A stretch of DNA of 64,000 nt from Rhodobacteraceae bacterium HLUCCO18 (GTDB lineage: Bacteria; Pseudomonadota; Alphaproteobacteria; Rhodobacterales; Rhodobacteraceae): contig LJSY01000015.1 in NCBI GenBank assembly GCA_001314805.1, positions 1-64,000 of the forward strand, given 5' to 3'. Positions 26,092-36,915 of the stretch are shown here, one piece after another. Each line of letters opens with the position of its first letter. The first letter of the stretch is position 1. Below the pieces are notes generated by a model. The model saw only the letters and a program-made list of their open reading frames with translations. It ran no database searches and was not told where the DNA came from. The translations under genes and the position numbers were made by a program.

Positions 26092-28161
26092 TCAGTCCCC
26101 GGCCATCAGGTCCGGCGGCTCGGCCCGGTCGAGCGCGGCGATCAGGTCGGCCAGCCCCGCCTCGAACCGCCGCCACCCGGCGACCGAGCCGCGGCCGATG
26201 GGCTGGCGCACCTGCGCGAAGCTGAGCGTGGCGACATTGCGCCGCGCCGACTGCGGTGCGAGGCAGGCATCGTCCCAGGGCACATCCGCGAATTCGATCA
26301 GCTTGCGGATCACCGGCTCGGGGTCTTCCGTCAGCGCTTCGTATTCGACGATATGCACGCGATCCGGAAAGCGCTCGGCCCAAAACGCCACGAGCGCCTC
26401 ATGCAATCGGATGTAGCGCGCCATGGCCGTCTGGTCATAGGCGTAGCGGTGAAGGCCCTCGGGAAACATGTTGCGCCAGAGCGACAAGCCCGTGTCCCTC
26501 GGGTCACGGCGCAACACCACGAAACGCGCGCCAGGCAGCGCGGTGGCGGCATGGCCGATCCGCGAGAAGGTGGAAATGGCCTTGTCGGCGATGATCCTTG
26601 GCGCATCCGTCCTGCGGCGCGCGGCGGCCAGGTAACGCTGACCGGCTTCGACGAAGCGCACCGGGTCTGCATGGTCCGCGCGCAGCGCCTCCAGCGCAGG
26701 GGCAAGCGCGCGGGAGAGATAGGGCATCTCACCCCCCGCGGTGACATCTGGATGGGCGGCGAGGATCGTCTCGACCAGCGTCGTGCCCGACCGCGGCAGT
26801 CCGGTCACGAAGACGACCGGATCCTCCGGGCCCTTCGGCGTCAGGTCCCGCAGTCGCGGCCAATCGCCCGCAAGCTCCCGCGCGATGGCCAGATCGGCCT
26901 CGAAGGAGTAGGGAAACGCCTCGGCCATCAGCCGGTTGGCGCGGTCGAGATGGTCGATCTCGGCCCCAATATCGCCCCGGTCCGCCGCGAATTTCGCCGC
27001 CGCGAAACGCATGACGCGCCGCGTGCGTGCCGGCAGGTCGGGGCGGGCCAGCTGCGTCGCGAGCCGGGCCGCCACGGGATCCTCCGCAGCGCTTTTGCGA
27101 CCGTTGGCGTAGGCGCGGTAGGCTTCGGGCTCCCGCGGGGCCAGCGCAATCGCGCGCGTGAGGTCCGCCTCCGCGTCGGCGAGGTCCCCGGCGCTTTGCC
27201 GAAGCTGCCCGCGCGCCGTCAGCAGGCCGGCGTTGTCGGTGTCGGTCGCCAGACCTTCGGTCAACAAGGCAATGGCCGCCGCGATCTCGCCCGCATCTCC
27301 AAGCGCCGTGGCAAGCCTCTGGCGCAGGTCGGTCCCGTTGCCCCGCGGCCGGCACCGCAGCGCGGCGACGAACGCGTCGCGGGCCGCGTCCACCTCGCGC
27401 AGCGCAGCCCGCGCGATGGCAAGCTGCGCGAGAAGCGGAAAAGTCGCTTTCCGCGCGGAAGCCGCCTCGAGGATCGCCGCGGCGTCCTCCTCGCGGCAAC
27501 TGTCGGAAAGCGCGCGGGCCAGCGGCAGGGCCACATCCGCCCCCAGCGCCTCGGCCTCGCGCAGCGTCGCGATCGCGGCCTCCGGACGGCCCGTCCGCGT
27601 CAGGACCCGGCCCAGATCGACGAGGAAAACGGCGTTTTGCGGTTCCCGCCGGGCCGCTTCCGCGAAGGCGGTCACGGCCTGCGCCCACTGGCCCAGCGCC
27701 GCATGCGCCGCGCCGACGGCATGCACGGGCGCAGCGGCCATCGGCGCCGCGCGCGCAAGCGCCATCGCCTGTTTCAGGGCCTCGCCCGGCTCTCCCTTCG
27801 CGATGCGGTCGAGGATGGGTTTCGTCTCCGCCGCGACGCCAAGGACAATCCCGGCCCTCGCCGCCTCGCGTTCCAGCTTGCTGCGGGGCGCACCCACGAG
27901 CACCCCGTGCAGAGCCTGCCAGATCGCGGCTTCGGCGGGCTTGGCCTTCAGCGCGGCCCGGAGCGATGTCTCGGCCCCGGCCGGATCACCCTTGTCCGCA
28001 AGGATTCGGCCCTTTTGAAACAGGACTTCCGCCTGCCCCGGAACGGCACGAAGGATGCGGTCATGGATGGCCAATGCCGCCTCGACATCGCCGGCCTTCT
28101 GGAGATCGAGCGCCTGCTGGTAGAGCCGCGGGATCTCCGCTTGCGATGGCGGGAGCATCAC
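26092..28161 (-). CDS. tetratricopeptide-repeat sulfotransferase family protein
   Basis: A 689-residue protein. The first 400 or so residues are TPR-like helices in tandem (for example AGDVEAALAIHDRILRAVPG, then QKGRILADKGDPAGAETSLR). The C-terminal part is a sulfotransferase: 5'-phosphosulfate loop VTGLPRSGTTLVETILAAHP and 3'-phosphate strand RFVVLRRDPRDTGLSLW. It would transfer sulfate from PAPS to an unknown acceptor. The PAPS-making sat-cysC gene is three kilobases away, which is suggestive only. No signal peptide is seen, so it is probably cytosolic. Confidence 0.88.
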   Translation of the reverse strand: MMLPPSQAEIPRLYQQALDLQKAGDVEAALAIHDRILRAVPGQAEVLFQKGRILADKGDPAGAETSLRAALKAKPAEAAIWQALHGVLVGAPRSKLEREAARAGIVLGVAAETKPILDRIAKGEPGEALKQAMALARAAPMAAAPVHAVGAAHAALGQWAQAVTAFAEAARREPQNAVFLVDLGRVLTRTGRPEAAIATLREAEALGADVALPLARALSDSCREEDAAAILEAASARKATFPLLAQLAIARAALREVDAARDAFVAALRCRPRGNGTDLRQRLATALGDAGEIAAAIALLTEGLATDTDNAGLLTARGQLRQSAGDLADAEADLTRAIALAPREPEAYRAYANGRKSAAEDPVAARLATQLARPDLPARTRRVMRFAAAKFAADRGDIGAEIDHLDRANRLMAEAFPYSFEADLAIARELAGDWPRLRDLTPKGPEDPVVFVTGLPRSGTTLVETILAAHPDVTAGGEMPYLSRALAPALEALRADHADPVRFVEAGQRYLAAARRRTDAPRIIADKAISTFSRIGHAATALPGARFVVLRRDPRDTGLSLWRNMFPEGLHRYAYDQTAMARYIRLHEALVAFWAERFPDRVHIVEYEALTEDPEPVIRKLIEFADVPWDDACLAPQSARRNVATLSFAQVRQPIGRGSVAGWRRFEAGLADLIAALDRAEPPDLMAGD

Positions 28162-28162
28162 G

Positions 28163-28663
28163 TCACGCCGACTGGCTGAGCCTGTTTTCCATCACGTCGA
28201 AGGGCACGCCCGGAGCATCCTTCGCGCCCCGGATGACCAGCGACGTGCGCACGCTCGCGACATTGGGCGCGGCCGTCAAAGACCCGGTCAGAAAGCTCTG
28301 GAAGGTCGAAAGATCCGGCGCCACGCATTTCAGGATGAAGTCGATCTCACCGTTGAGCATGTGGCACTCGCGCACGAGCGGCCAGCCGCGACAAAGCTCC
28401 TCGAAGGCGACGAGGTCCGCCTCGGCCTGGCTCGAGAGGCCGACCATGGCAAAGACCTGAACCTCGAAACCCAGCAGACGGGGGTCCACCTCGGCGTGGT
28501 AGCCGCGGATATACCCGGCCTCCTCCAGCGTGCGCACGCGGCGCAGGCAGGGCGGCGCGGAGATGCCGACGCGGCGGGCAAGTTCGACGTTGGTCATTCG
28601 ACCGTCGTCCTGCAGTTCGGCGAGAATCTTGCGATCTATGGGATCGAGCTTGGTGCTGGGCAT
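28163..28663 (-). CDS. lrp: Lrp/AsnC family transcriptional regulator
   Basis: A 166-residue regulator with winged HTH (LDPIDRKILAELQDDGRMTN, ELARRVGISAPPCLRRVRTLEE) and RAM domain. The sequence is closer to classical Lrp than the regulator at 1175. GGAGG lies eight bases before ATG 28663. It is divergent from trxB, an arrangement found in related bacteria. The TPR-sulfotransferase gene follows one base after the stop, so the two may be co-transcribed. Confidence 0.93.
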   Translation of the reverse strand: MPSTKLDPIDRKILAELQDDGRMTNVELARRVGISAPPCLRRVRTLEEAGYIRGYHAEVDPRLLGFEVQVFAMVGLSSQAEADLVAFEELCRGWPLVRECHMLNGEIDFILKCVAPDLSTFQSFLTGSLTAAPNVASVRTSLVIRGAKDAPGVPFDVMENRLSQSA

Positions 28664-28979
28664 CTGGTCCGGCCCCCTCCGCCGGATGGTACGTCTGGTC
28701 ATTCCGTGCGCATGAACACGTCCACGCGCAATTTTATTTCAAGGTCGCGCAACATATGGAATAGCGGTCGGGGATTTGCAAGCGGCGACGTGGCCGGGTC
28801 CGGGGCGACGTCCCGGGCGAGGGCAAGCTGCCTACGCACTATGCCCGGCGCGCGCGGTCTGCACAAGAAACAGGAGCACGCCGCATCTCGACGCAGGCCC
28901 CACCGGCCGATCCACTCTTTCGCCGGGGCGTTCCGCGTCTTATATCGATTGCGTCCGCAAACAGCCCCGAGGTCCGATC
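28664..28979. other. lrp-trxB divergent intergenic region
   Basis: 316 bases without a gene. It holds an AT-rich patch at about 28729-28765 (AATTTTATTTCAAGG, then CAACATATGGAATAG), which is the likely lrp promoter or autoregulatory area. A TATATCGATT lies near 28943, 37 bases before trxB. I see no terminator, RNA gene or clear inverted repeat. Confidence 0.5.
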
Positions 28980-29975
28980 ATGTCCGACACCCGCCACACC
29001 CGCGCTCTGATCATCGGGTCCGGCCCTGCCGGATACACCGCGGCCGTCTACGCCTCGCGCGCGATGCTGGAGCCGATCCTCGTGCAGGGCATCCAGCCCG
29101 GCGGACAGCTGACCATCACCACGGATGTCGAGAACTGGCCCGGCGACACCAGCGTCATGGGCCCCGACCTTATGGTGCGCATGGAAGACCACGCGCGCGA
29201 GATGGGCACCGAGATCATCAGCGACCACATCTATTCGCTCGACCTGTTCAGGCGCCCCTTCACGGCCCATGGCGACAGCGGCACGACCTACACCGCCGAC
29301 GCCGTGATCCTCGCCACGGGCGCCCAGGCGAAATGGCTGGGCCTGCCGTCGGAGGAGCATTTCAAGGGCTTCGGCGTCTCGGCCTGCGCGACCTGCGACG
29401 GCTTCTTCTATCGGGGCAAGGAGATCGTCGTGGTGGGCGGCGGCAACACCGCCGTTGAGGAGGCGCTTTTCCTGACCAACTTCGCCTCCAAGGTGACGCT
29501 GGTGCATCGCCGCGACAGCCTGCGCGCGGAAAAGATCATGCAGGACCGGCTGTTCAAGAACCCCAAGGTCGAGGTGGTCTGGAACCACACGATCGAGGAG
29601 GTCGTGGGCGGCGAGGAGCCGCGCGGCGTCGAGGGCGTCGTGATCAGGCATGTCGAGACGGGCAAGACGCAGACGATCCCTTGCGCGGGGTTTTTCGTGG
29701 CCATCGGCCATGCGCCTGCCACCGAGCTGGTCAAGGACCAGCTGGAGCTTCACAACGGCGGCTACGTGAAGGTGGAACCGGGCAGCACGCGCACCTCCAT
29801 TCCCGGCGTCTTCGCCGCGGGCGACCTGACGGACCACATCTACCGGCAAGCCGTGACGAGTGCCGGGATGGGCTGCATGGCCGCGCTCGACGCCGAGAAA
29901 TGGCTGGCCGAGCAGGAGGGCGAGGAAACGTCCGACGCAGGCGTCTATGCCGCCGAGATCGGGGCGGCGGAATAG
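28980..29975 (+). CDS. trxB: thioredoxin-disulfide reductase
   Basis: Flavoprotein that passes NADPH electrons to thioredoxin. 331 residues: FAD motif [15 protein letters not shown] near residue 11, redox pair Cys136/Cys139 in ACATCDG, NADPH motif [13 protein letters not shown], and the C-terminal [21 protein letters not shown] split over the FAD contact. ATG at 28980 follows GAGG by eight bases; 68 upstream codons in the same frame are not conserved. Confidence 0.96.
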
Positions 29976-30148
29976 CCGCACACGCCGCCGACCTGCCCAT
30001 CGCGCCGCGGGTTTCGGGCCCTGCGACCCTGTGCGGGACGCGGTCGGGGGTCACGATACCACCCCGTTTCGTCCCGCGTTGCGTCACCTTGATGCCGTGT
30101 TCCACGTTTATTCCAGACCCGTATTTTTTAGTGGATTTGGAGCGACCC

Positions 30149-30850
30149 ATGGCGATGCGTGCATTTCTGGCCAGCGAAGAGGCGGCCATCACGACGGACT
30201 GGGTCGTCGCGACCGCTGCGGTGACGGCCATGGGCCTCGCGACCGTCACTCTGGTTTCTGGTGGAATGGAAGACATCTCCGGCGGCATCGCCACGACGTT
30301 GTCGGAGCAGCTCGAAACGGCCTTCGTCGCCGCGACCGCGGGGCTGACGGTGACCGACGTGTGGAACGATCCCTCCGTGTCGATGCGCGACTTGCTCAAC
30401 GTGGAGCAGTTCTCGTTCTCCACGGTCGTCGATCTCGACCCGAATGCCGAAGGGATCCTTTTCGAAACCGGCGCCAATGTCTGGGGCACGATTCTCTATC
30501 AGCATGACGGCGTGCTCTATCTGCAGTCGGGTCGCGGCAATGGCTACGGCGAGACGGCCGAGCGGGGCGAGGCATCCTGGCAAGTCACCGGGGGTACGGC
30601 CACGATCGAGGGCTCGCTCGATGCCAATGGCGGCCTCGCGCTGATGATCAATGGCGAGGTGGTCGATCAATCCTCTTTCAACACGTCGCTGCTGGCCGGC
30701 GGCAATCCGGGCAGCATCGCAGGCGCGAATTCCGGCGTCGCGGCCAATCGCGGCGGGTTCAACCAGAACGATGCTGGCTATCCGGGCGTGACCGAGGTGG
30801 TTCTCTTCGAAGATCAGACGACCGGTCACGAGCTGGTGCCGCTCGACTGA
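30149..30850 (+). CDS. Flp-pilin-like protein with laminin-G-like C-terminus
   Basis: A 233-residue protein of unknown function. Residues 4-45 (FLASEEAAITTDWVVATAAV, then TAMGLATVTLVSGGMEDISG) have the charge-then-hydrophobic layout of Flp/Fap pilin N-termini, with the acidic residue before the membrane helix. The rest looks like a beta-sandwich of laminin-G/concanavalin type: FSFSTVVDLDPNAEGILFE, WGTILYQHDGVLYLQSG, GEVVDQSSF. No Tad pilus genes are in the window. Start by position of the helix; GGAGCG precedes ATG. Confidence 0.65.
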   Translation: MAMRAFLASEEAAITTDWVVATAAVTAMGLATVTLVSGGMEDISGGIATTLSEQLETAFVAATAGLTVTDVWNDPSVSMRDLLNVEQFSFSTVVDLDPNAEGILFETGANVWGTILYQHDGVLYLQSGRGNGYGETAERGEASWQVTGGTATIEGSLDANGGLALMINGEVVDQSSFNTSLLAGGNPGSIAGANSGVAANRGGFNQNDAGYPGVTEVVLFEDQTTGHELVPLD

Positions 30851-30905
30851 GGCAGACCGGCGGCGGGCGCACGGGCACCGCGCCTGCAGAGCTTCGGCAA
30901 CAGTC

Positions 30906-30921
30906 TGTTCACGTGTGAACA
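30906..30921. promoter_or_regulatory. palindromic operator 1 upstream of sat-cysC fusion
   Basis: TGTTCAC-GT-GTGAACA, a perfect 7-base dyad with a two-base centre, 74 bases before the GTG start. Same arms as operator 2; the centres are 49 bases apart. Confidence 0.75.
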
Positions 30922-30952
30922 AACATCTTTCCTCCCGGAAGCGATCGTGACA

Positions 30953-30972
30953 TTTGTTCACCCGTGAACAAA
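30953..30972. promoter_or_regulatory. palindromic operator 2 upstream of sat-cysC fusion
   Basis: TTTGTTCAC-CC-GTGAACAAA, a perfect 9-base dyad ending 22 bases before the GTG start. Its position beside the start suggests repression, and the adjacent MarR-type HTH is the obvious candidate binder (inference). Confidence 0.8.
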
Positions 30973-30994
30973 CCCGATTCGACCGGATGAAACC

Positions 30995-33064
30995 GTGGCC
31001 GACCCCACCATCGCCCCGCCAGACGAAGACATCCTCTTCCGGCTCCTGCGCCAGCTCGACACGGCGCCCGACGCGTCCCAGCGCGAAACGGCCGAGGCCA
31101 TGGGCGTCAGCCTCGGGCGGCTCAACGCGCTGTTGCGCGCCAGCACATCGGCAGGCCTCGTGCAGATCACGGAGAAGAAGTCAGACGACCGCAGGCAGCG
31201 CGCGTCTTACCTCCTGACCCCGCGCGGAGCGGCCGAGAAGGCACGCCTCGCGGATCGGTTCCTTGCCCGAAAGTTCGCCGAATACAACGCCCTTCACGCC
31301 GAGCTGACCGGCTCGGCCAGCCCCCTTGCCCCCCCGAAGTCCAGGACATTGACCATGCAAAGCCATCTGACACCCGTTCCCGAGCTCTACGTCTCCTACG
31401 ACAGTGCGCAGAAGCTGAAGATGGAGGCCGCCGACCTGCCGTCGTGGGACCTCACCGCGCGCCAGGTCTGTGACCTCGAGCTGCTGATGAACGGCGGCTT
31501 CAACCCGCTCAAGGGCTTCATGGGCAAGGCAGATTACGACAGCGTGGTCGAAAAGATGCGGCTGACCGACGGCACGCTCTGGCCGATGCCGATCACGCTG
31601 GACGTGTCGCAGGCCTTCGCCGACACGATCGAGCCGGGACAGGACATCGCGCTGCGCGACGCCGAGGGCGTGATCCTCGCCATCCTCTCGATCTCCGAAA
31701 AGTGGAGCGCCGACAAGGCGCGGGAGGCCGAGAAGGTCTACGGCGCCGACGACATCGCGCATCCGGCGGTCTACTATCTCCACCACAACGCGGGCCCGGT
31801 CTATCTGGGCGGAGCGATCACCGGCATCCAGCCGCCGACGCATTACGATTTCCGCGCCCGCCGCGACACGCCGAACGAGTTGCGCGCCTATTTCCGCAAG
31901 CTCGGCTGGCGCCGCGTCGTCGCCTTCCAGACGCGCAACCCTCTGCACCGTGCGCATCAGGAACTGACCTTCCGTGCCGCCAAGGAGGCGCAGGCGAACC
32001 TGCTGATCCACCCGGTCGTCGGCATGACCAAACCGGGCGACGTGGACCACTTCACCCGCGTGCGCTGCTACGAGGCAGTCCTGGACCAGTACCCGTCGGC
32101 CACCACGCACATGAGCCTTCTGAACCTCGCCATGCGCATGGCCGGCCCGCGCGAGGCGGTCTGGCACGGGCTGATCCGCAAGAACCACGGCTGCACGCAC
32201 ATGATCGTGGGGCGCGACCACGCAGGTCCGGGCAAGAATTCCGCCGGTGAGGATTTCTACGGCCCCTATGACGCGCAGGACCTGTTCCGCGAGCACCAGG
32301 AGGAAATCGGCATCGAGATGGTCGATTTCAAACACATGGTCTACGTGCAGGAGCGCGCGCAATACGAACCGGCGGACGAGATCGCCGACAAGGACGACGT
32401 CACGATCCTCAACATCTCGGGCACCGAGCTGCGCCGCCGCCTGCGCGAGGGGCTGGAGATCCCGGAATGGTTCTCGTTCCCGGAGGTGGTGAACGAACTG
32501 CGCCGCACCTCGCCGCCGCGCTCCAAGCAGGGCTTCACGGTGTTCTTCACGGGGCTTTCGGGCTCGGGCAAGTCGACCATCGCCAACGCGATCATGGTCA
32601 AGCTGATGGAGATGGGCGGCCGGCCCGTGACGCTGCTCGACGGTGACGTGGTGCGCAAGCACCTGTCGAGCGAGCTCGGCTTCTCCAAGGAGCATCGGGA
32701 CATCAACATCCGCCGCATCGGTTATGTCGCGTCGGAGATCACGAAGAACGGCGGTATCGCGATCTGCGCGCCGATCGCGCCCTACACCGCCACGCGCCGG
32801 GCCGTGCGCGAGATGGTCGAAGCCTACGGCGCCTTCGTGGAGGTGCATGTGGCGACTTCGATCGAGGAATGCGAACGGCGCGACCGCAAGGGGCTCTACA
32901 AGCTTGCCCGCGAAGGCAAGATCAAGGAGTTCACCGGCATCTCCGACCCCTACGAAGAGCCGACGACCGCCGAACTCGTGGTCAATACCGAGGGGACCGA
33001 GGTCGACTACTGCGCGCAGCAGGTGCTGCTGAAGCTCGAGAGCATGGGGCTGGTCGCGGCCTGA
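30995..33064 (+). CDS. MarR-type HTH fused to bifunctional ATP sulfurylase/APS kinase
   Basis: One open frame of 689 codons from GTG 30995. Residues 1-115 are a winged HTH of the EPS-associated MarR type (SQRETAEAMGVSLGRLNALL, YLLTPRGAAEKARLADRFLA). Met121 (31355) begins a full sulfurylase (ELYVSYDSAQKLKMEAADLP; HRAH in NPLHRAHQE; VGRDHAGPG), and APS kinase follows with P-loop GLSGSGKST near residue 520. Together the enzymes make PAPS from sulfate. An AGGAC seven bases before ATG 31355 could start a separate 569-residue enzyme. No stop separates the parts. Confidence 0.85.
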   Translation: MADPTIAPPDEDILFRLLRQLDTAPDASQRETAEAMGVSLGRLNALLRASTSAGLVQITEKKSDDRRQRASYLLTPRGAAEKARLADRFLARKFAEYNALHAELTGSASPLAPPKSRTLTMQSHLTPVPELYVSYDSAQKLKMEAADLPSWDLTARQVCDLELLMNGGFNPLKGFMGKADYDSVVEKMRLTDGTLWPMPITLDVSQAFADTIEPGQDIALRDAEGVILAILSISEKWSADKAREAEKVYGADDIAHPAVYYLHHNAGPVYLGGAITGIQPPTHYDFRARRDTPNELRAYFRKLGWRRVVAFQTRNPLHRAHQELTFRAAKEAQANLLIHPVVGMTKPGDVDHFTRVRCYEAVLDQYPSATTHMSLLNLAMRMAGPREAVWHGLIRKNHGCTHMIVGRDHAGPGKNSAGEDFYGPYDAQDLFREHQEEIGIEMVDFKHMVYVQERAQYEPADEIADKDDVTILNISGTELRRRLREGLEIPEWFSFPEVVNELRRTSPPRSKQGFTVFFTGLSGSGKSTIANAIMVKLMEMGGRPVTLLDGDVVRKHLSSELGFSKEHRDINIRRIGYVASEITKNGGIAICAPIAPYTATRRAVREMVEAYGAFVEVHVATSIEECERRDRKGLYKLAREGKIKEFTGISDPYEEPTTAELVVNTEGTEVDYCAQQVLLKLESMGLVAA

Positions 33065-33073
33065 ACGTCATGC

Positions 33074-33103
33074 GCCGGTCCGGCGTGAAAGCGCCGGACC
33101 GGC
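33074..33103 (+). terminator. terminator-like hairpin after sat-cysC
   Basis: A perfect 12-pair stem (GCCGGTCCGGCG / CGCCGGACCGGC) with loop TGAAAG starts ten bases past the stop. No T-run follows, only TGGTCTTC, so it may stabilise the 3' end rather than terminate. Confidence 0.6.
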
Positions 33104-33192
33104 TGGTCTTCGGGCGAAACACGCCTAACATACGTCAAGGGACCTTGCCCGGACACGGGCAAGGCTGGGGGGCGGATCGCCGGGGGGCTGAC

Positions 33193-33570
33193 GTGGAAAA
33201 CTCGACCAAAGACACCGCGCATCTGCGATCTCTCCTCGAAGAGGACGAGGCGACGATGAGCGTCGTGATCACGGATCCGTCGCTGCCCGACAATCCGATG
33301 ATCTATGTCAGCGACGAGTTCGAGACGCAGACCGGGTATTCCGTCGAGGAGGCCACCGGCCAGAACTGCCGTTTCCTGCAGGGGCCCGACACGGACCCTC
33401 ATGCGGTGGAGGCGATCCGGCAGGCGCTCAGGGCGGAAACACGGTTCACGATCGACATCCTGAACTACCGCAAGGACGGCTCGGCCTTCGTGAACCGGCT
33501 GCGCATCCGGCCGATCTATGATGCGGATGGCAGGCTGATGTTCTTTGCAGGCGCCCAGAACCCGGTGTAG
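33193..33570 (+). CDS. short LOV (PAS) blue-light photoreceptor
   Basis: A 125-residue flavin-binding LOV protein without effector domain. The photoactive Cys59 sits in GQNCRFLQGPDTDP; NYRKDGSAFVNRLRIRPIYD and the final FFAGAQNPV complete the PAS core. The sequence is very close, from memory, to the short LOV protein of Dinoroseobacter shibae, which affects photopigment levels. The start is GTG 33193 behind GGGGGG; ATG 33256 would cut the N-terminal cap. It acts alone or through a partner; no output gene adjoins. Confidence 0.9.
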   Translation: MENSTKDTAHLRSLLEEDEATMSVVITDPSLPDNPMIYVSDEFETQTGYSVEEATGQNCRFLQGPDTDPHAVEAIRQALRAETRFTIDILNYRKDGSAFVNRLRIRPIYDADGRLMFFAGAQNPV

Positions 33571-33578
33571 CGGCGGGA

Positions 33579-35039
33579 TCAGTCGCCGTCGCCCGGTCCG
33601 ACCTCGCCCGTGTCGGGCTCGGCGGCGGGTTCGGGCGCGCTTTCGTCGGTCGGCAGGCCCCCGTCCCATTCGGTCTCCAGCACCTCTCCGCTCGCGTAGC
33701 GCATCGTGCCCTCGCCCTGTCGGCGGCCGTTGACGAACATGCCCTCGTAGACGTCGCCGTTGGAATAGGTGGCCACACCCATCCCGTTGATCTCGCCGTC
33801 TTCCCATGCGCCTGCATAGGTGAAACCGTCGGGCATGGTGAGCGTGCCCTCGCCCTCGCGCTGCCCGGCGACGAAGGTGCCCTCGTAGACGGTGCCGTCG
33901 GAATAGGTGGCGATGCCCTGCCCGTGGCGCAGGCCGTCCTCCCACTGCCCCTCGTAGCGGTAGCCGTCGGGATGGCTCATCACGCCCTGCCCGTGCTGGC
34001 GGGCGTTGAGGAACTGGCCCTCGTAGACCAGTCCGTTGGCGTAGCGCGCCACGCCCGTGCCCTGGATCACGCCGTCGACCCAGTCGCCCTCGTAGGAGGA
34101 GGCGTCGGGATAGGTGATCGTGCCCCGCCCATGAGCGAGGTCGTCGCGGAATGAGCCGACATAGACAGAGCCGTCGGGATAGGTCACTTGTCCCTGCCCC
34201 TCGATCCGGCCCTCGCTCCACTCGCCGACATAGACATAGCCGTCCGCGCCGGTGAAGACGCCGTTGCCGTGGCGGCGATCGTCGAGGAAATCGCCTTCGT
34301 AGACATCGCCGTTGTCATAGACCACGCGGCCCTCGCCCTGTCGCTGGCCGTCGACCAGCACCCCGGTATAGACATCGCCGTTGGGCTGGGTCAGGACACC
34401 TTGCCCGTTGATCTGGCCATCGGCCCATTCGCCCTCGTAGATGACGCCACTAGCCATCTCGAGCCGCCCGGTCCCCGACCGCTGCCCGTCCGCGAACTGG
34501 CCTGTGTAAACCGCGCCGTCGGGATAGGTGATCGTCCCGGTCCCTTCCTTCAGCCCGTTCTCCCACTCGCCCTCGTAGCGGTAGCCGTTGGGCCCGGTCA
34601 TCACGCCCTGCCCATGATGCAGCGCGTTCAGAAATTCGCCCGTGTAGCTCACGCCATTGGCATAGACGGCGGTTCCGCTGCCCTCGATGCGGCCATCGTT
34701 CCACGCGCCGTCATAGGTGGAGCCGTCGGCGAAGGTGATCGAGCCCGTGCCCTGCGGACGCCCAGCGGCGAATTCGCCTTCGTAGACCGACCCGTCGGGG
34801 AAGCGGGCCACGCCCTGACCGCGGATTTCGCCATCGACCCAATCGCCGGTGTATTCGTACCCGTTGGGCAGCCGGTAGGTGCCCGTGCCATGCTGCACGC
34901 CGTTGCGGAACTCGCCCTCGTAGATGCCGCCGTTGTCGTATTGCTGAATGTCCACCCGGGTGTCCTGCGCAAGAACCCCGCCCGGTGCCATCACCGCCAT
35001 GCCGCCTGCAACCGCGACGCACCATATCGTCTTTCGCAC
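33579..35039 (-). CDS. secreted MORN-repeat protein (18 repeats)
   Basis: A 486-residue protein with a Sec signal peptide (MRKTIWCVAVAGGMAVMAPG, cleavage near VLAQ). It is then almost entirely 23-residue MORN units of the form YxNGxxYEGEWxxGxxxGxGxxT: 18 full copies and one partial, about residues 34-460, ending in an acidic tail. At DNA level this is a 69-bp tandem repeat. MORN arrays bind membranes or act as scaffolds; this one would be periplasmic or exported. The start codon is GTG with GAGGAGG about 11 bases upstream. Confidence 0.88.
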   Translation of the reverse strand: MRKTIWCVAVAGGMAVMAPGGVLAQDTRVDIQQYDNGGIYEGEFRNGVQHGTGTYRLPNGYEYTGDWVDGEIRGQGVARFPDGSVYEGEFAAGRPQGTGSITFADGSTYDGAWNDGRIEGSGTAVYANGVSYTGEFLNALHHGQGVMTGPNGYRYEGEWENGLKEGTGTITYPDGAVYTGQFADGQRSGTGRLEMASGVIYEGEWADGQINGQGVLTQPNGDVYTGVLVDGQRQGEGRVVYDNGDVYEGDFLDDRRHGNGVFTGADGYVYVGEWSEGRIEGQGQVTYPDGSVYVGSFRDDLAHGRGTITYPDASSYEGDWVDGVIQGTGVARYANGLVYEGQFLNARQHGQGVMSHPDGYRYEGQWEDGLRHGQGIATYSDGTVYEGTFVAGQREGEGTLTMPDGFTYAGAWEDGEINGMGVATYSNGDVYEGMFVNGRRQGEGTMRYASGEVLETEWDGGLPTDESAPEPAAEPDTGEVGPGDGD

Positions 35040-35254
35040 GGGTCTTGCCCCTCCTCGTCCCGGAGCCGGTCGTTTTCATCTCGGAGCCGCTCGCGCGCCA
35101 AAGCTAGGGGAGGCTCCGGGTCTCTGCAATGCATTTCCGGGCGCGTCGAGGTCCCATGCGCGGTGCTTTACCGCGACCGCTTGGCCCCGGGCGGTGGTCT
35201 GCTATGTCAGGGACGGCGCGGCGATGGGCGCGCGAAGTGGAAAGGTCTGAACCC

Positions 35255-36915
35255 ATGTCCGAGCGGTTCCGCATGTGGCTGGCGCAACTCAATCCCACCG
35301 TCGGCGATCTGGCGGCCAATGCCGACACCGCCCGCGCCGCGTGGGAAAAGGCACGCGACGCCGGCGCCGACATGATCGCCTTTCCCGAGATGTTCCTGAC
35401 CGGCTACCAGCTTCAGGACCTGGTGAAGAAACCCGCCTTCGCGATGGATGTGCACCGGGTCATGGGAGAGCTTGCCGCGACCTGCACCGACGGTCCGGCC
35501 ATCGGGATCGGCGGCCCGCTGCCCGGCGGGGCCAAGCCGTTCAACGCCTATTACGTGCTTCAGGACGGCGAAATCTCGGCGACCGTGCTCAAGCACCACC
35601 TGCCGAACTACAACGTCTTCGACGAAAAGCGCTATTACCATTCGGGCGACCCGGCAGGCCCGGTGCGCGTCGGTCCGCTTCGTATCGGCGTGCCGATCTG
35701 CGAGGACGCGTGGTTCGAGGACGTGACCGAAACGCTGGCCGAGACAGGGGCCGAGATCCTACTGGTCCCAAATGGCTCCCCCTACCATCGCGGCAAAATG
35801 GATGTCCGCCAGGCGCAGATGGTGGCCCGCGTGGTCGAGACGGGGCTGCCGCTGGTTTACCTGAACCTCTTGGGCGGACAGGACGACCAGGTCTTCGACG
35901 GGGCGAGCTTCGTTCTGAACCCCCATGGGCGGCTCACCCACCAGATGCCGGCCTTCGAGGAGGGGCTGTTCGAGGTGATCTTCGAGCGGGGCGAGGAGGG
36001 CTGGCACGCGCTGGAGGGCGAAAAGGCGCACCTCCCCGATACGTGGGAGGCCGACTATCGCACCATGGTCCTGTCGCTTGGCGATTACATGCGCAAGGCG
36101 GGCTTCGGGAAGGCCGTGCTGGGCCTTTCGGGCGGGGTCGACTCGGCCCTTGTCGCCGCCATCGCCTGCGATGCGCTGGGGCCGGAGAACGTGCGCTGCG
36201 TGATGCTGCCCTCGCGCTACACCTCCGAGGCATCGTTGACGGACGCGCGCGCCGTGGCGGAGCGGCTGGGATGCCGGCTCGACACCGTATCCATTGGCGG
36301 CGCACATGTCGCCGTGACCGACGCGCTGTCGGAGCTTTTCGCTGGGCTGGAGCCCGATCTTGCCGAGGAAAACATCCAGTCCCGCCTGCGCGGCGTCATG
36401 CTGATGGCGCTGTCGAACAAGTTCGGCGAAATGCTTTTGACCACCGGCAACAAGTCCGAGGTCGCGGTGGGCTATTCCACGATCTACGGCGACATGGCGG
36501 GCGGCTACAAGTCAAGGATCTCTACAAGACCCGCGTCTTTCAGACCTGCCGCTGGCGCAACGCCAATCACCGGGCGTGGATGAAAGGGCCCGAGGGCGAG
36601 GTCATCCCGCCCCGCGTCATCGACAAACCGCCCACGGCGGAGCTGCGCGAGGATCAGAAGGACGAGGACAGCCTGCCGCCTTATGCCGATCTCGACGTGA
36701 TGCTCGAGATGCTGATCGACAAGGACGCCTCGGTGGCCGACGTGGTCGCGCTCGGCTATGACCGGGAAACGGTCAAGAAGATCGAGCGGCTGATCTATCT
36801 CAGCGAATACAAGCGCTTTCAGTCGGCACCCGGCACAAGGCTGACCGAGCGCGCCTTCTGGCTCGACCGCCGCTATCCCATCGTGAACCGCTGGCGGGAC
36901 GAGACGGGAAACTGA
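35255..36915 (+). pseudogene. nadE: glutamine-dependent NAD+ synthetase, frameshifted
   Basis: Makes NAD+ from nicotinate adenine dinucleotide with glutamine nitrogen. The nitrilase-type glutaminase domain (FPEMFLTGYQLQDLVKK, LVPNGSPYHRGKMDVRQ) and the ATP-binding synthetase domain (GLSGGVDSALVAAIACDALG) are intact. The frame breaks at 36510/36511 after GDMAGGY. The family reads GGYNPxKDLYKTR; here AA is followed directly by GTCAAGGATCTC, so about four bases are missing. The first frame stops at 36583; the second frame runs KDLYKTRVFQTCRWRNANHR to 36915. A corrected product would be about 554 residues, the normal length. It may be a sequencing error. Confidence 0.88.

Follow-up and report, generated by a model that had tools for sequence, protein, structure and literature searches.

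A MarR_EPS-type winged helix fused in frame to ATP sulfurylase/APS kinase in Rhodobacteraceae: a putative trigger enzyme of sulfate activation with two predicted translation starts

Trigger enzymes, among them PutA, NadR and BirA of E. coli, carry a catalytic enzyme and a DNA-binding domain on one chain. PutA is reported to bind only the putA/putP spacer and to repress its own gene (PMC8249747). A sulfur-assimilation enzyme active in transcription has also been described in fungi, where PAPS reductase A acts as a transcription activator (PMC4848566); however, this protein is eukaryotic, is another enzyme and works through a C-terminal activation peptide, and the abstract of that study does not speak of an operator at its own gene. 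In this study, we analysed a window of 64,000 nucleotides from Rhodobacteraceae bacterium HLUCCO18 (contig LJSY01000015.1, positions 1 to 64,000), in which one gene joins a MarR_EPS-type winged helix-turn-helix (HTH) to the sulfate-activation enzyme Sat-CysC. By analogy the fusion is of the same kind as the PutA-type trigger enzymes. It differs from them in its enzyme, that of sulfate activation, in its DNA-binding domain, a winged helix of the MarR_EPS type, and in a free enzyme that its conserved internal start is predicted to supply as well. We propose, with a probability of about 0.72, that it is an autogenously repressed trigger enzyme made in a long and a short form from two translation starts. 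Genome comparison establishes the fusion, the association of an operator-like motif with it, its near-single predicted target and the conserved internal start.

The fused gene lies on the forward strand at 30995-33064, begins with GTG and runs through 689 codons (689 aa) in an uninterrupted frame. Its N-terminal part (residues 1-120, 30995..31354, forward strand), which ends in a variable linker, is a MarR_EPS-type winged HTH: the TIGR04176 MarR_EPS profile matched residues 10-104 with 93.4 bits when residues 1-120 were taken alone and 88.6 bits in the whole protein, against a cut-off of 88. The following Sat-CysC (ATP sulfurylase/APS kinase) part (31355..33064, forward strand), 569 aa from an internal ATG with the stop included, gave 1050.8 bits with NF004040 Sat/CysC over residues 118-688 (cut-off 669). 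With the frame free of stops and both profiles above their cut-offs, the single uninterrupted HTH and Sat-CysC frame claimed in the initial annotation of this DNA was borne out. The Pfam order in the protein is HTH_24, PUA_2, ATP-sulfurylase and APS_kinase; HTH_24 (PF13412) passed its cut-off (25.0 bits versus 21.9), PF14306, PF01747 and PF01583 were matched in the Sat-CysC part, and the classical MarR profile PF01047 stayed below the Pfam gathering cut-off in the fusion protein (16.6 bits versus 24.6). The QTRNPLHRAH motif and the APS kinase P-loop are intact in 91/91 complete fusions, and the catalytic domains of the fusions are predicted to be intact. Nine columns are invariant across 42 HTHs, fused and free, and the linker between a conserved LHAEL and the internal start, though variable in its residues, is 16 codons long in 90 of the 92 loci that showed LHAEL. 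Judged from its open frame, its constant linker length and the retention of the operator and of HTH residues, the long form is maintained.

A search of related genomes for the same fusion was positive in 5/5 genomes of the own genus and in 90/394 Rhodobacteraceae genomes, two of these 90 (G036, G384) having it in frames cut by contig ends, and the earlier view that its parts are known only as separate proteins is thus untrue of the databases. Sat-CysC is present in 325/394 family genomes, and the HTH was matched in 135/394 with an E value no higher than 1e-6. Of these 135 matches, 90 are strong (at least 118 bits) and in frame with Sat-CysC; the remaining matches are weaker and mostly lie within short frames. 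The 93 fusions examined here comprise the 90 of the family genomes and those of three same-genus genomes, the window included. L083, which has little upstream sequence, was retained among them. The codon scan omitted L112, with a flagged stop, and L134 and L135, which run into contig ends; the latter two were also omitted from the Sat tree, and L083, L134 and L135 have no estimate of the long start. L133, with an HTH and no Sat on its contig, was excluded from the fusion counts and grouped with the free HTHs for the tree. The fused alignments A1 and A2 comprised 24 and 46 rows. Scanning GTDB with the fused-HTH alignment gave 319 relatives, and the best 80 of 319 are all in frame with Sat-CysC and free of stops; these are the closest matches and thus uninformative on frequency, 23 of them repeating earlier genomes and 57 being new. 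The bearers among the best 80 of 319 include Roseicyclus, Nioella, Shimia, Leisingera, Phaeobacter italicus, Roseovarius and Antarctobacter, and outside the family the fusion was found in none of 385 class genomes, judged by open-frame length. The own genome is a draft of 3.68 Mb in 87 contigs, which might suggest an artefact of assembly or annotation, but the fusion also occurs on single-contig genomes (G002, G127, G372), and 92 loci from other genomes together with 57 further named loci share the same frame, so that we regard such an artefact as ruled out, its probability being negligible. A sequencing error hiding a stop or frameshift is rejected by the same recurrence in genus and family. 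A description of this fusion was not found in the literature searched, which was judged largely from titles and the starts of abstracts and covered subscription journals thinly.

The palindromes upstream of the gene to which the initial annotation alluded were located at 30905..30922 (distal, CTGTTCACGTGTGAACAA, with one mismatch to TTGTTCACNNGTGAACAA) and at 30954..30971 (proximal, TTGTTCACCCGTGAACAA), the latter with the core GTTCA-N4-TGAAC at 30956-30969, 25 nt before the GTG. This core is perfect upstream of 91/93 fusions, the exceptions being L095 (9/10 positions) and L083 (contig end), whereas it is perfect in 0/39 unfused sat-cysC genes within 700 bp upstream, one of which has a 9/10 match. 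The unfused set consisted of 40 loci hand-picked from the matches listed, a few of them for long frames, and one proved to be a divergent fusion (L164), leaving 39. On well-supported branches of the enzyme tree 5/5 independent pairs of relatives agree (p = 0.0625), and a few random pairings gave 4, with 1 undecided. Among the 57 new loci, a perfect operator with AGGA-N8-start 360-420 nt downstream was found in 55, and L227 has both at 424 nt from each other; L204, from a metagenome bin and with a foreign-looking upstream stretch, is without the operator.

A search of the own genome for TTGTTCACNNGTGAACAA gave just two sites with no more than one mismatch, and both fall within the 90 bp that precede the gene. 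Three further TTGTTCACNNGTGAACAA sites, in other parts of the genome, have two or three mismatches, and none was obtained with the reversed control pattern. Across 35 fused genomes, 54 sites had at most two mismatches to TGTGTTCA-N4-TGAACACA, against 3 for the control pattern; 36 of the 54 lie at the fusion and the other 18 are all two-mismatch sites. By hand count, each of the 21 sites that differ by no more than one mismatch in these 35 of the 93 fused genomes sits at the fusion gene, thus the only visible target of the fused regulator, and apparently its single one, is its own gene. A wider regulon was not seen, sites with at most one mismatch being confined to the fusion gene in the own genome and in the 35 of 93 fused genomes. 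It had been suggested at the outset that a DNA-binding enzyme of sulfate activation could control its own synthesis, and this is very probably the case, as the operator occurs with the fusion, not without it, and forms the only strong sites in the genome.

In the region of the proximal palindrome, columns -29 to -26 and -8, -7, -4 and -3 relative to the operator core are conserved across 92 loci, and in the window these correspond to a putative promoter at 30927..30956 on the forward strand, with CTTT at 30927-30930 and TG-N2-AT at 30948-30953 running into the operator. A sigma-70 consensus scan of the window did not find a promoter; the conserved columns look like a promoter whose downstream element enters the palindrome. 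Between the end of the core and the estimated long start lie 5-43 nt, 19 nt being the commonest distance (27/90 loci); the long starts are estimates that take the start codon nearest the usual place. We propose that HTH-Sat-CysC, the long product, uses its winged helix to bind GTTCA-N4-TGAAC at its own promoter, and that the bound HTH most likely blocks RNA polymerase, since the likely -10/start region and the operator overlap, the operator typically ending 19 nt before the long start (25 nt here). In 20/93 fusions the proximal site has a second one 26-49 bp upstream, where an upstream activating site could be expected, and the HTH might then be an activator of its own promoter; however, the site that nearly all fusions share overlaps the conserved TG-N2-AT and most often ends 19 nt before the long start, which is the position of a repressor, and we consider activation improbable.

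The initial annotation had also pointed to an internal start at ATG 31355, and this is supported by an AGGA Shine-Dalgarno at 31343..31346 on the forward strand, 12 nt before the ATG. In 91/93 fusions (exceptions L050 and L121) AGGA occupies exactly position -12 relative to the internal start codon, this codon being ATG in 88, GTG in 4 and TTG in 1 of the 93; in L082 and L128 the internal start was moved by one and two codons to reach an ATG. Among the best 80 of 319, 75 have AGGA at -12 from the aligned start, and in 4 it is displaced by one more codon, the ATG of these loci coming one codon earlier; L218, which is from the same genome as L050, is without AGGA. The motif is kept at the level of nucleotides: the Arg codon there is AGG in 92/93 fusions versus 39/4882 (0.8%) of the other Arg codons of the same genes, and the codon after the internal start begins with A in 91/92, though it codes for Thr, Ser, Asn, Ile or Met, so that across the junction the amino acids vary and the nucleotides stay constant. 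In a scan of 662 columns of 90 genes, the Arg117 column showed +3.8 bits of rare-codon use, the next column 1.25, with a spread of 0.32, and AGGA at -12 was found before 0/1397 other in-frame Met codons of Sat-CysC. Predicted pairing with the anti-Shine-Dalgarno at the 16S end had a mean of -4.87 kcal/mol over 93 internal starts and of -2.35 over 90 long starts, while 39 starts of unfused sat-cysC averaged -4.27 and the 1397 other Met codons -2.6; in the window gene the two starts pair about equally (-4.0 internal, -3.8 long), the difference holding for the group only. As a separate observation in the HTH region, codons 41, 42 and 54 of the 90 fusions show a weaker excess of the rare codons GGG/CGG.

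Since the internal Shine-Dalgarno is conserved as nucleotides, both long and short products are expected, and the data suggest that the cell makes both the HTH-bearing enzyme and, from AGGA-N8-ATG, Sat-CysC alone. The internal start is probably ancestral, since translation of unfused sat-cysC begins at roughly this position, and together with the equal pairing of the two starts in the window this would suit a situation in which only one product matters, the long or the short alone, with AGGA-ATG being the ancestral free-enzyme start kept for other reasons. On the other hand, an unused relic would not hold a codon used for 0.8% of Arg in 92/93 fusions, and an unused HTH would not retain its frame, residues, linker length and operator; we therefore think it quite unlikely that only one of the two products is made, and prefer the reading in which two products are made from one gene. 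Under the two-product reading, both products would make PAPS and would probably co-assemble, and the share of HTH-bearing subunits would set the level of repression.

What the repressor part might respond to can be approached from predicted structures. The AlphaFold model of the HTH (mean pLDDT 85.9) comprises a winged helix followed by a long C-terminal helix at residues 76-105, and Foldseek with this model returned MarR regulators and Sso10a with modest scores, consistent with a MarR-like fold. In classical MarR proteins extra helices make up the ligand pocket, while the fused HTH appears in the model to be a bare winged helix with one long helix and no ligand domain of its own, thus a signal would need to come from the enzyme. 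The full-length AlphaFold model is too weak over the Sat part (mean pLDDT 67.6) to place the HTH on the enzyme. The best-scoring solved relatives of the enzyme, 1i2d and 1m8p (676 and 674 bits over residues 140-687), are presumably Penicillium ATP sulfurylase, which has no DNA-binding domain. In filamentous fungi the C-terminal domain of ATP sulfurylase is reported to bind PAPS as an allosteric inhibitor (PMC3779200), and PAPS would thus be a natural candidate for the signal.

Accepting that the HTH appears to be without its own ligand domain, we suggest that the enzyme part most likely reports the state of sulfate activation (APS/PAPS) to it. DNA binding, repression, co-assembly and metabolite sensing are the steps that we infer in this scheme. 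Its most specific form is put forward tentatively, as somewhat unlikely when taken as a whole: long and short subunits would share one oligomer, binding of APS/PAPS to it, by analogy with the PAPS-inhibited fungal enzyme, would alter its DNA binding, and the assembly would be sensor and repressor of sulfate activation at once, tuned by the ratio of the two starts on a single mRNA. The HTH might also simply gauge the amount of long protein, in plain negative feedback with no metabolite, as a single-target autoregulator needs no ligand and the HTH shows no ligand domain. NadR and BirA, however, are enzyme-fused regulators that answer to their substrate, and a free HTH would suffice for plain feedback. 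PutA too, as an enzyme-fused regulator of known biology, is described as responding to substrate (PMC8249747). We regard autogenous control without a signal as a possibility to be taken seriously, though short of an even chance.

Standalone MarR_EPS proteins (TIGR04176) belong to the same HTH family as the fusion and are 34-52% identical to the HTH of the window (28 rows); the retrieved ones mostly belong to short frames, of roughly 108-225 aa, at other places in the genome. The perfect core was found within 300 bp upstream of 12/28 standalone MarR_EPS matches at other loci, thus the motif goes with the HTH family, and GTTCA-N4-TGAAC is the predicted operator for TIGR04176 regulators. In these free MarR_EPS loci (L286-L305, L308-L313, L012, L013) the core is often present, some 80-260 bp ahead of the HTH match and with other flanks, for example ACCGTTCA..TGAACGAT. 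A second HTH copy was not found in the own genome at E < 0.05. In a tree that took every third fused row (31/93), the fused HTHs together with L164 split from 29 free ones with a support of 97/100, and since the tree separates fused from free HTHs, the HTH was probably joined to the enzyme once. From the side of the enzyme a single clean origin was not recovered, as fused and unfused Sat-CysC are mixed in the tree, which needs 18-19 changes with few supported branches; repeated losses of the HTH along with its operator, or exchange of sat-cysC, are likely and would account for the mixing. L164 (G299) has a divergent MarR_EPS HTH, 43.6% identical, fused to Sat-CysC; two perfect palindrome cores lie upstream of it, and AGGA stands 11 nt before a possible internal ATG. 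An independent fusion in L164 was considered and set aside, its HTH falling on the fused side, though on a very long branch. The free Sat-CysC of other Rhodobacteraceae (NF004040) is the same enzyme, 83-89% identical among the matches listed, but has no HTH, and no perfect operator in the 39 tested. Sat-CysC without a matched HTH also occurs on Rhodobacteraceae plasmids, for example of Roseobacter denitrificans and Sulfitobacter; in the plasmid records H1-H10 (Roseobacter, Sulfitobacter, Paracoccus and others) Sat-CysC is 80-85% identical and the matched part is without an HTH.

The seven neighbouring frames at 26092-36583 encode a TPR-sulfotransferase, an Lrp/AsnC protein, an FAD oxidoreductase, a protein without a match, a PAS protein, a MORN protein and an NAD synthase. 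Exopolysaccharide genes were not found among these seven frames, and the label 'EPS-associated' that the HTH had received reflects the TIGR04176 family name only, the neighbourhood showing no such context. The TPR-sulfotransferase (PF13469, 130.4 bits; 26092-28161, reverse strand), about 3 kb from the fusion, is a possible user of PAPS. Directly downstream of the fusion lies a single PAS-domain protein of 125 aa (PF13426; 33193-33570, forward strand), in which the stretch GQNCRFLQG resembles that of a LOV photosensor, followed by a 486-aa protein with 13 MORN repeat stretches (33579-35039, reverse strand).

In the own genome (G000), PAPS reductase PF01507 and sulfite reductase PF01077 were not matched in the whole assembly, and PF01507 is present in four same-genus genomes. 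Either the cys operon lies in an assembly gap, or PAPS serves sulfation alone in this species. We considered whether the fusion arose through loss of cysteine synthesis and rejected this, PF01507 being found in 38/40 fused versus 39/40 other genomes, with no link; the comparison took 40 of the 93 fused genomes, and the 40 others include G299 and three without a strong Sat-CysC match. A description of how sulfate activation is controlled in marine Rhodobacteraceae was not found in the literature searched, mostly titles and the starts of abstracts.

In 90/394 genomes of the family, one gene thus appears to hold an enzyme, its repressor, its operator and an isoform switch, and an annotation that chooses either start alone would miss a product. 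Metabolite sensing by the enzyme part would be an interesting step beyond the sequence evidence, and the fusion provides a clear and cheap test case for an enzyme that may itself be its pathway's sensor.
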